The notes under the pieces: model-generated
What the model was told of the DNA's origin: nothing
What the model saw: only the letters and a program-made list of their open reading frames with translations
Database searches by the model: none
Position numbers and translations under genes: made by a program
Shown here: positions 40,756-63,498 of the stretch, one piece after another
Layout of the letters: each line of letters opens with the position of its first letter
Numbering within the stretch: the stretch's first letter is position 1
NCBI GenBank assembly: GCA_040755755.1
Contig: JBFLZW010000018.1
Coordinates: 62,001-126,000 of the forward strand
Length of the DNA: 64,000 bases
Direction: 5' to 3'
Source of the DNA: a bacterium
GTDB taxonomy: Bacteria; SZUA-182; DTGQ01

Positions 40756-41826
40756 GGGGTCAAATCTTTATTTTTGACAATTATGATCATTTTAAGGTAA
40801 TCTTTAAGCATGAGTAGACCTTTGCGTATCCAATATCCAGGTGCAATATATCACATCACAGACCGTGGAAATGAGCAGAAAAGTATTTTTGGGGATGATG
40901 AGGATCGCCTACGTTTTCTGAACATTCTTGCTCAATCGGTTAAGACCTATCAGGTCAGAGTCCACTGTTTTGTATTGATGTCGAATCATTTCCACCTGTT
41001 GGTTGAAACTCCCTTGGGAAATCTTGGAGATTTCATGCGTCACTTTACTATTACCTATACATCTTATTTCAATCGACAACATAATCGTTGCGGTCATCTG
41101 TATCAAGGTAGATATAAAAGTCTACTCATCGAAAAAGATGCCTATTTTTCAAGTGTATCCCGTTATATTCATCTGAATCCGGTCAGGGTCAATGATATCA
41201 GGAAAAAAACAATCGGAGAACAACTTGATGTTTTGTGGAATTACCAATGGAGCAGCCTTCCCGGATATCGAGATACCAAAGGCAGATATGAGTTCGTTGA
41301 GTATGGATATATACTTGAGGAATTTGGTGGTGATACTCTTGGGGGAAGAAGAGCGTATACAAAACAGATTGAGTCAGATGTGGCGGAGGGTTTATCGATA
41401 AAGGATAAAATCATTGGACAAAGCCTGCTTGGAGGAGATGGTTTTGTTTCCTGGGTCAGTGATAAGTTTTTGAAAGGAGTAAAAGACAGAGAGCGGCCAG
41501 CGGTAGGTAAGGTTTACCGATATGTCGCCAAGGATGAAATCCTCAAAGCTGCAGCGGAGGTGCTTGAGATGAGGCCAGAGGAATTGATAAAAACCTCTGG
41601 AATAACAAGATATATTAGCATGGATCTTTTGTATCGGTTTGGCGGATTGAATAACCGGGAAATAGGAGAGCTGTTTGGAGTCGACTACTCGACCGTGAGC
41701 CAGAGCAGAAAGCGATTGCGGCAGGGTATGAAACATGATGAGGAACTTCAGGGTCTCTTTCGAAAGATTGAACGACTATTGTCGCCTGGTTGCTATCGGA
41801 CGTTACAAGAATAAAGATTTGACCCC
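40756..41826 (+). mobile_element. REP-associated (IS200-like) transposase unit bounded by inverted repeats
   Basis: GGGGTCAAATCTTTATT (40756-40772) is repeated inverted at 41810-41826 (AATAAAGATTTGACCCC). The pair encloses a single transposase gene, and the right repeat overlaps its stop codon. The right-hand flank is a coding sequence lacking a start, so the unit seems to have inserted into or replaced part of a gene. Confidence 0.75.
40810..41814 (+). CDS. REP-associated tyrosine transposase with C-terminal DnaA-like HTH
   Basis: 334 aa. The Y1/HUH nuclease domain covers about residues 1-190: PGAIYHITDRGNE, the HUH pair H60 and H62 in MSNHFHLLVET, GHLYQGRYKSLL, and RYIHLNPVR with the likely catalytic Tyr119. 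The C-terminal part (~240-334, IGELFGVDYSTVSQSRKRLR) is a helix-turn-helix like DnaA domain IV, common in long RAYTs. These enzymes cut and join single-stranded DNA at REP-type hairpins. The enzyme could act on the hairpin repeats scattered in this window. AT-rich relative to its neighbours. Intact and probably functional. Confidence 0.88.
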   Translation: MSRPLRIQYPGAIYHITDRGNEQKSIFGDDEDRLRFLNILAQSVKTYQVRVHCFVLMSNHFHLLVETPLGNLGDFMRHFTITYTSYFNRQHNRCGHLYQGRYKSLLIEKDAYFSSVSRYIHLNPVRVNDIRKKTIGEQLDVLWNYQWSSLPGYRDTKGRYEFVEYGYILEEFGGDTLGGRRAYTKQIESDVAEGLSIKDKIIGQSLLGGDGFVSWVSDKFLKGVKDRERPAVGKVYRYVAKDEILKAAAEVLEMRPEELIKTSGITRYISMDLLYRFGGLNNREIGELFGVDYSTVSQSRKRLRQGMKHDEELQGLFRKIERLLSPGCYRTLQE

Positions 41827-61529: not shown

Positions 61530-62483
61530 GTGAGCGCAATGACAACCGAAGTTATTGAAAACGTCCGGATATCAGGCCAATACTATCGGCTTACCCTGGC
61601 TTGCGCCGAAATAGCCAATCAGGCATCTGCCGGACAATTTGTCATGATCAGGGTGCATCAGGGCCTGGATCCCCTGCTGCGCCGCCCCTTTTCCATCCAC
61701 CGGCTGTGGGACTCCCGCCGGCACAGGCCATCCCCGGATTCCGGAAGCGACCGCCCGCAAGGCATCCAGATACTGTTTCGCCTGGCAGGGAAAGGAACAG
61801 CGTATCTGGCCTCGCTGTCCACAGGAGCGAAAATCGATGTTATTGGTCCGCTCGGCCACGGTTTTCAGCTTGAAAAGCCGGTTCTGCACCCTGTTTTGAT
61901 TGCCGGGGGAATCGGGATTGCTCCTTTGCTTTTCCTGGCTGATCAATTAAGAGTGGTCAGTGGTCAGTGGCCAGTGGTCAGTAAAGAGAAGACAGGAGAC
62001 AGAAGCCAGGAGTCAGGAGTCAGGAGTCAGGAGAAAAACAAACTGCAAGCGACGTCATTGATGGAAAGTCCATTATTCCAGCCCCGGCTGTTCCTTGGGG
62101 GAAAAAGTGCCGAGGACATTCTCTGTCAGGAGGATTTTCGGAAACAGGGCTTTTCTCTCTCCATCTCCACTGAAGACGGGTCCCTGGGGCATAAGGGGCT
62201 GATCACGGAACCCTTGTGCGCATATCTGGAGCAGGTGACCCGGATTTCGTCCGGGATTGAACCTGTTCTTTTTGCCTGCGGTCCCCTCCCCCTGATGTCC
62301 AGGGTAATTGAAATTGCCCGGCACTATCATCTGAGCTGCCAGGTTTCCCTGGAGCAAAGAATGGCCTGCGGAGTTGGTGCCTGCATGGGATGTGTGGTAG
62401 AATTGGAAGAAGGCGATAATTCGCATCAATACCGAAGGGTCTGCACGGAAGGCCCGGTTTTTGAGATACTCATAAAGAATTAA
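61530..62483 (+). CDS. pyrK: dihydroorotate dehydrogenase electron-transfer subunit, with in-frame repeat insertion
   Basis: 317 aa; the family is usually near 260. GTG 61530 or ATG 61539 may be the start. The FAD-binding part has QFVMIRVHQGLDPLLRRPFS (RxxS-type FAD motif), then the GKGTAYLASL turn and IDVIGPLGHGF. The NAD region has VLIAGGIGIAPLLFLAD, and the C-terminal [2Fe-2S] motif is CGVGACMGC with the last ligand in RRVCTEGP. Residues ~141-172 (SGQWPVVS, then SQESGVRSQE) derive from simple repeats and interrupt the NAD domain in a surface loop. PyrK links NAD+ to PyrD in class 1B dihydroorotate dehydrogenase. It sits upstream of pyrD. Confidence 0.9.
   Translation: MSAMTTEVIENVRISGQYYRLTLACAEIANQASAGQFVMIRVHQGLDPLLRRPFSIHRLWDSRRHRPSPDSGSDRPQGIQILFRLAGKGTAYLASLSTGAKIDVIGPLGHGFQLEKPVLHPVLIAGGIGIAPLLFLADQLRVVSGQWPVVSKEKTGDRSQESGVRSQEKNKLQATSLMESPLFQPRLFLGGKSAEDILCQEDFRKQGFSLSISTEDGSLGHKGLITEPLCAYLEQVTRISSGIEPVLFACGPLPLMSRVIEIARHYHLSCQVSLEQRMACGVGACMGCVVELEEGDNSHQYRRVCTEGPVFEILIKN
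61950..62045 (+). repeat. simple repeats inserted in the pyrK coding sequence
   Basis: GTGGTCAGTGGTCAGTGGCC and three direct copies of AGTCAGG (about 62010-62032) are plainly repetitive DNA. They add about 32 codons without a stop or frameshift. Similar repeat DNA lies near 58630. Confidence 0.8.
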
Positions 62484-62488
62484 CGATT

Positions 62489-62556
62489 ACCACGAAACAC
62501 ACGAAACACACGAAAGAATTCAAAGTCTTTTTCGTGTACTTCGTGTGTTTCGTGGT
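62489..62556. repeat. 27-bp inverted repeat of the CACGAAACACACGAA type between pyrK and pyrD
   Basis: Arms ACCACGAAACACACGAA (from 62489) and TTCGTGTGTTTCGTGGT (to 62556) with a further near-repeat toward the centre and a short loop. The hairpin ends 12 bp before the pyrD ATG and covers the place where a ribosome-binding site should be. Confidence 0.85.
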
Positions 62557-62568
62557 TAAAATTCATCA

Positions 62569-63498
62569 ATGACCACCAATACCATCGATACGAAAGTTCA
62601 TCTGGCTGGCCTTGAGCTGAAAAATCCGGTTATGGTAGCTTCCGGAACCTTTGGCTATGGCCGGGAGTATGCCGGTTTCATCGACCTCAATCAGCTTGGG
62701 GCTATTGTGGTCAAAGGGGTGTCTGTTCAGCCGATGGCAGGAAATCCTCCACCCCGCATTGTCGAGACACCGGCTGGCATGCTGAATTCCATAGGATTGC
62801 AGAATGTCGGCCTGAAGACCTTCATCAGCGAGAAGCTGCCGTTTCTGGAGGAGATTGACAGCCTGGTCATCGTGAATATTCTGGGGCACACGATCGATGA
62901 ATATGTGACTCTGGCCAGCGAGCTGTCAAAACACCCGCGGGTGGATGCCCTGGAGATCAATATCTCCTGCCCCAATGTTGACAAGGGAGGTCTTGCTTTC
63001 GGAACAGATGGGGAGGCCACGTTTGAGGTTGTGCAGGCTGTCCGGAAGGCAACTCATCTTCCCCTCATTACCAAGCTCACGCCCAATGTGACCAGTATCG
63101 CGCTGATTGCCCGCAGCGCTCAGGAAGCGGGCAGCGATGCCATTTCCCTGATCAACACGGTCCTTGGCATGGCCATCGATATTCACCGCCGAAAGCCGGC
63201 CCTGGCCAGAATCGTCGGCGGGCTCTCCGGCCCGGCCATTAAACCCATTGCCCTGCGGATGGTCTGGCAGGTATCGCAGGCGGTGGATATTCCCATCATC
63301 GGCATGGGCGGAATCATGAGCGCGGAGGATGCCATAGAATTTCTCCTGGCCGGAGCCAGTGCGGTTTCCATCGGCACCGCTCAATTTGTTGATCCGCAGA
63401 TACCAATCAAAGTGGTCAAAGGGATCGAAGAATATATGATGAGGTATCAATTTCACAAGATCAGGGATATTACCGGAAGCCTCGATGTTTCATTATGA
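62569..63498 (+). CDS. pyrD: dihydroorotate dehydrogenase, class 1B catalytic subunit
   Basis: 309 aa. A cytoplasmic FMN barrel that oxidises dihydroorotate to orotate in pyrimidine synthesis, paired with PyrK. Motifs: NPVMVASGTFGYG, KGVSVQPMAGNPPPRIVETP, AGMLNSIGLQNVG, ALEINISCPNVDKGG with the class 1B catalytic Cys, LITKLTPNV, ISLINTVLGMAIDI and GGLSGPAIKPIALRMV. No good Shine-Dalgarno is visible because the inverted repeat occupies the upstream region. The stop overlaps the RelA/SpoT gene start (ATGA). Confidence 0.94.
   Translation: MTTNTIDTKVHLAGLELKNPVMVASGTFGYGREYAGFIDLNQLGAIVVKGVSVQPMAGNPPPRIVETPAGMLNSIGLQNVGLKTFISEKLPFLEEIDSLVIVNILGHTIDEYVTLASELSKHPRVDALEINISCPNVDKGGLAFGTDGEATFEVVQAVRKATHLPLITKLTPNVTSIALIARSAQEAGSDAISLINTVLGMAIDIHRRKPALARIVGGLSGPAIKPIALRMVWQVSQAVDIPIIGMGGIMSAEDAIEFLLAGASAVSIGTAQFVDPQIPIKVVKGIEEYMMRYQFHKIRDITGSLDVSL

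Follow-up and report, generated by a model that had tools for sequence, protein, structure and literature searches.

Heptanucleotide repeat DNA captured as coding sequence in pyrK and in other genes of one bacterial genome

Dispersed repeats inside protein-coding genes are known from Rickettsia, in which, according to the available portions of two accounts (PMC10969869, PMC3767692), the Rickettsia palindromic elements (RPEs) lie in frame inside unrelated protein genes without destroying the reading frame. Dispersed heptanucleotides have been described separately. The available text of PMC2670836 presents the cyanobacterial STRR heptanucleotides as dispersed tandem units of seven bases, sometimes capable of forming hairpins, and that of PMC4692102 describes GGGNATC and GGGGA(C/T)T heptamers in Xanthomonas and Nostoc as dispersed arrays that are mostly intergenic and near the ends of ORFs. 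The repeat reported here shares a feature with each of the first two systems: as in the portions of the RPE accounts cited above, it is inserted in frame into unrelated protein genes, and as in the STRRs of that cyanobacterial text, it consists of tandem seven-base units scattered over the genome. We describe its position within pyrK, in a stretch of 64,000 nt (hereafter referred to as the window), and its distribution in the rest of the genome.

Two heptamer arrays in the reading frame of pyrK

The ORF carrying the arrays (Table 1) has the FAD/NAD-binding domains of PyrK, adjoins a class 1B pyrD gene, and ends in a [2Fe-2S] domain with four cysteines. It was matched by PF10418 (58.6 bits, cut-off 23.9), by NCBIfam PyrK models over residues 6-139 and 193-310 (best score 162 bits, under the whole-protein cut-offs), and by the Lactococcus lactis PyrK structures 1ep1, 1ep3 and 5ksw. 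PyrD was identified by PF01180 (286 bits) and PRK07259 (442 bits, cut-off 269). L. lactis PyrK (1EP1/1EP3) has the same domains and cysteine motif but lacks the insert, its helix running straight into the next strand (alignment, residues 137-140). The single-sequence AlphaFold model of the protein had a pLDDT of 32, too low to be used; the loop is putatively exposed. Searches for PyrK relatives in viral contigs, for alignment, and for named PyrK relatives in a scan of the genome contig collection found none. Between pyrK and pyrD (62487-62556), there is a nine-base inverted repeat, CACGAAACA / TTCGTGTAC, which looks like another dispersed hairpin family.

Table 1. Features of the pyrK-pyrD region (positions in the window)
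Feature	Position	Strand	Evidence
pyrK CDS, 314 aa, dihydroorotate dehydrogenase B electron-transfer subunit with repeat insert	61539..62483	+	PF10418, NCBIfam and PDB matches
NAD-binding GGIGIAP motif, intact, directly 5' of insert	61905..61925	+	alignment A1 and 30-row alignment
TCAGTGG heptamer array, 4.4 copies, translated VVSGQWPVVS	61952..61982	+	Tandem Repeats Finder (7-base consensus AGTGGTC, 91% matches); translation
short spacer separating the two arrays	61983..61989	+	sequence
AGTCAGG-type heptamer array, 6.4 copies, translated GDRSQESGVRSQE	61990..62034	+	Tandem Repeats Finder (7-base, AGACAGG-type, 86% matches); translation
enlarged loop, non-repeat portion (KNKLQATSLMESPLF)	62035..62079	+	gap in relatives' alignment
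[2Fe-2S] cysteine motif C277, C282, C285, C302, intact	62367..62444	+	invariant columns in A1; PF10418
pyrD, class 1B dihydroorotate dehydrogenase, partner gene 3' of pyrK	62569..63498	+	PF01180, PRK07259

The period-7 signal of pyrK is far beyond chance: identity at a lag of seven bases reached 61/75 in the 75-nt segment starting at 61952, the highest value of the whole window, against a background mean of 19.0 (SD 4.1) and a second-highest value of 38. The 314-codon frame stays open across both arrays from its ATG, in agreement with the initial annotation, which had described a repeat interrupting the NAD-binding region without a frameshift. That annotation placed the repeat at 61950-62045, with about 32 codons (96 nt). 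The repeat is there, but it is shorter, at about 83 nt or 27-29 codons (peptide RVVSGQWPVVSKEKTGDRSQESGVRSQEK, residues 138-166), the proposed 3' limit being about 11 bases too far; beyond the second array, the loop is extended by sequence that is not repeated. The insert sits between the GGIGIAP motif and the next strand (LFLGGKSAEDIL).

Both units have a property of direct relevance to their presence in a gene. Read cyclically in the sense direction, TCAGTGG and AGTCAGG contain no stop codon and, because seven is not a multiple of three, all three frames give a single cyclic peptide, (SVVSGQW)n for the former unit and (SQESGVR)n for the latter. The only requirement for a sense array is therefore a net length divisible by three. 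The antisense unit contains TGA, which closes all frames within three units, and TCAGTGA-like variants introduce a stop in one frame of the sense strand. By computation, 18% of all heptamers are open on a given strand only, and 15 of the 16 NN variants of the GTCAG core have an open sense strand encoding one peptide in every frame, with a closed antisense strand. This frame-independent reading suggests that tandem heptamers are well suited to capture. In this and other AGTCAGG arrays, AGGAG, a Shine-Dalgarno-like core, recurs with a period of seven bases, and the TCAGTGG unit includes a GTG; arrays lying 5' of genes could act on translation starts.

A unit of seven bases would also fit a phase-variation switch, in which an array growing or shrinking by one heptamer would shift the frame and reversibly silence PyrK. 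In simulations, adding one unit led to a stop at residue 151 and removing one to a stop at residue 172, and heptanucleotide repeats and phase variation are reportedly dealt with together in a study of HMW1A of H. influenzae. We nevertheless consider a switch very improbable here, as the arrays contain only four to six imperfect copies and are interrupted, and their target is a housekeeping gene.

A search for PyrK in 97 genomes gave matches in 71, including the source genome, and loci from 29 of the 70 other matching genomes were aligned with the PyrK described here (30 rows). The distance from GIGxAP to just past the next strand is 73 residues in this protein, versus 32-58 (median 35) in the 29 relatives, and the heptamer repeat is present at this site in none of them (0/29). 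The insert occupies the loop that follows the NAD-binding helix with the GxGxAP motif, a loop of variable length among relatives; two relatives have longer loops (54 and 58 residues) with sequences unrelated to the repeat, indicating that the site tolerates changes in length. An ancient insertion conserved across PyrK proteins, the outcome that the initial annotation had named as fatal to its reading, is thus ruled out for the 29 relatives compared. The flanking motifs and cysteines, which had been reported as intact, are indeed so: when this protein was aligned with three relatives (four sequences), the cysteines and the principal residues of the motifs fell in invariant columns.

No clear pyrK was found in the same-genus and same-family genomes G001-G003. 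In G001, from the same genus, pyrD adjoins the same relA/spoT-like gene (L342, G001:C25:1-4389, a contig of 4389 bases), but no pyrK was found in the 590 bases of contig upstream from pyrD and no good PyrK match was obtained elsewhere in that genome. In G002 and G003, PF01180 had no strong match, the scores being 51 and 49 bits, respectively. The nearest PyrK relatives therefore come from other families of the class, and the date of the insertion is only loosely bounded. The lack of an adjoining pyrK in G001 also tempers any claim that the enzyme is needed, and pyrK may be dispensable in the source genus. These observations in G001-G003 would be compatible with a decaying pyrK, the repeat having been inserted into a gene that selection no longer strongly constrains, with the frame not yet disrupted. 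We consider decay unlikely, given the 314 open codons, the preservation of the motif columns common to the three relatives, and the intact adjoining pyrD, which is the sole strong match to PF01180 in the genome. Moreover, in-frame inserts are also found in UvrD and in the only good full-length CysS match of the genome (see below), which argues that working proteins tolerate such inserts. PyrK likely retains its enzymatic function.

Dispersal of the heptamers and capture by other genes

The genome (5.26 Mb, 88 contigs) contains exact two-unit TCAGTGG repeats at 73 places and exact two-unit AGTCAGG repeats at 112 places, whereas the reversed control patterns occur at 0 and 3 places, respectively. 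The TCAGTGG double unit was found in the source genome alone among the 97 genomes, and GGAGYCAGGAGYC occurs 257 times here, versus 1, 1, 0 and 0 times in G001-G004. We retrieved 107 clusters (L039-L145), leaving 12 of the 112 AGTCAGG places outside this set. The arrays are heptamer runs of variable extent, mostly 20-100 nt, and only a minority are palindromic. Inverted arms in some of them would allow hairpins to form. Arrays located between co-directional frames were in the sense orientation in 37 cases and in the antisense orientation in 16 (two-sided p 0.0055), in a count based on longest-frame gene calls from which 4 of the 92 non-genic clusters, near contig ends, were dropped. Arrays often abut the 3' ends of genes, giving C-terminal tails of the SQESGVR type, as in MurG, KdtA-like and BadF-like proteins (e.g. 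L114, L138 and L050). The genome also has six matches to the Y1_Tnp transposase, including one in the window (40843-41172) and another (L332) about 300 bases from an array (L068), at the end of contig C11. We make no claim of a link between transposase and array, as there is one retrieved cluster per approximately 49 kb and this proximity may be due to chance.

A repeat dispersed in a genome of 88 contigs could be misjoined into pyrK during assembly, or be collapsed or given the wrong copy number, and three contigs (C6, C13 and C21) start with near-identical sequence around an array. The two halves of pyrK and the pyrD gene are nevertheless collinear and in frame, many other genes show this pattern, and a misjoin would not preserve the frame of the same gene. 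We consider an assembly artefact very improbable.

Capture is not limited to pyrK: 28 of the 107 clusters lie inside frames of 100 codons or more that extend for at least 15 codons on each side, and 15 of the 107, that of pyrK included, are in frame in genes recognised by Pfam, mostly in linkers between domains. These 15 include three (L060, L067 and L127) that lie near the end of the protein, past the recognised domain, with uncertain gene limits. A double UvrA, fused into one protein of 1789 residues (L266:2512-7878), carries an array between its two units. According to Pfam, arrays are also present between the catalytic and DALR domains of CysS, inside the UvrD_C domain of UvrD, after the T2SSE domain of a GspE/PilB-type ATPase, before the prodomain of an S8 protease, and, in five clusters, in two polyketide synthase frames, mostly between domains. 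Further in-frame arrays were found by Pfam in a Mu-type portal and transposase, a TolC-type protein and a cytochrome. At L265:5063-19295, paired large frames resembling polyketide or PUFA synthases contain several arrays, and the palindromic copies among them are kept open.

The corresponding CysS loop is short and free of the repeat in G002; in G001 (L275), a long GSQEPG-rich insert, possibly a decayed older array, lies in this loop. In UvrD, the array fills a loop of variable length among relatives, the loop of G001 being longer than that of the source genome. We also looked for genes broken by an array. Among the other 92 clusters, 14 have long same-strand frames entering the array from both sides and could be evaluated in this way, clusters with shorter frames falling outside the test. 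The two sides matched different Pfam families in nine of these clusters (e.g. MurG/MurC, FtsA/FtsZ and KdtA/LpxK); in a tenth, they correspond to two flagellar rod/hook genes, and the other four had a Pfam match on a single side. No single gene broken out of frame by an array was found among the 14 testable clusters.

The suggestion made at the outset, that a dispersed repeat has become protein in pyrK, is upheld by the copies present genome-wide, their absence from the 29 PyrK-like proteins, the open frame and the intact surrounding motifs. The insert is very probably a composite of TCAGTGG and AGTCAGG arrays from a dispersed heptanucleotide family, captured in a tolerant loop and kept in frame by selection. 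In the scenario we propose, the family would have expanded in the source genome, and an array would have been inserted, or have grown, in the sense orientation within pyrK, at the loop joining the first helix of the NAD-binding domain to its second strand. Such an array, being free of stops, would have had to satisfy the length requirement alone, and selection would then have retained the copies preserving the frame. Slippage, hairpin-mediated copying and a transposase are candidate means of spread.

Heptamer arrays in other organisms and in known repeat families

Four-unit GTCAGNN arrays were found in 20 of 290 genomes, with differing NN. In a named collection, GTCAGKRGTCAGKRGTCAG occurs in at least 117 stretches, and the matches listed include records from Cyanobacteria, Planctomycetota, Chloroflexota, Acidobacteriota, delta-proteobacteria and others; the GTCAGKR heptamer itself is present in cyanobacterial records. 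In 80 loci of other organisms, containing 89 clusters, there were 17 sense frames (15 arrays) and no antisense frame, because the antisense strand carries stops. Six of these frames were checked with Pfam. In proteins from other phyla, an array lies between the B12-binding and activation domains of MetH, and another inside the hydrolase domain of a P-type ATPase, both with recognised domain sequence on each side; in a nitrogenase-type protein, likewise from outside the phylum of the source genome, Pfam matched two stretches over a length of 950 residues. In the remaining three frames, the array lies outside recognised domains. It is conceivable, though in our view rather doubtful, that GTCAGNN arrays are phylum-crossing, frame-blind coding inserts, that their sense dispersal can add soluble linkers, that they are, in this genome, a continual source of linkers and tails for housekeeping proteins, and that the intergenic sense bias reflects selection on the transcript.

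Searches of the literature with the exact repeat strings and peptides retrieved no paper, and searches with combined terms retrieved none on the capture of heptamer arrays by conserved proteins. STRRs have reportedly been found in an RNA gene (Vioque, 1997). The insertions in PyrK, CysS, UvrD, UvrA and the polyketide synthases, conserved enzymes all encoded by one genome, make up a clean natural data set, permitting direct tests of where proteins tolerate new sequence and of how repeat DNA becomes protein.

The arrays differ from each of the known families. RPEs are palindromes of approximately 100-150 bp with a family-specific consensus, whereas those described here are seven-base tandem arrays, mostly short and one-sided, with only some copies in palindromic form. 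The cyanobacterial STRRs have promoter and intergenic copies in the available text of PMC2670836, a portion that does not describe capture by conserved proteins, whereas the present arrays also lie within coding genes. The Xanthomonas and Nostoc heptamers, as presented in the accessible part of PMC4692102, form G-quadruplexes and are under-represented in coding regions, and their units differ from those found here. In-frame dispersed repeats (Rickettsia) and dispersed heptamers (cyanobacteria, Xanthomonas) were known already; this repeat, and its capture by conserved proteins, appear from the literature searches to be new.
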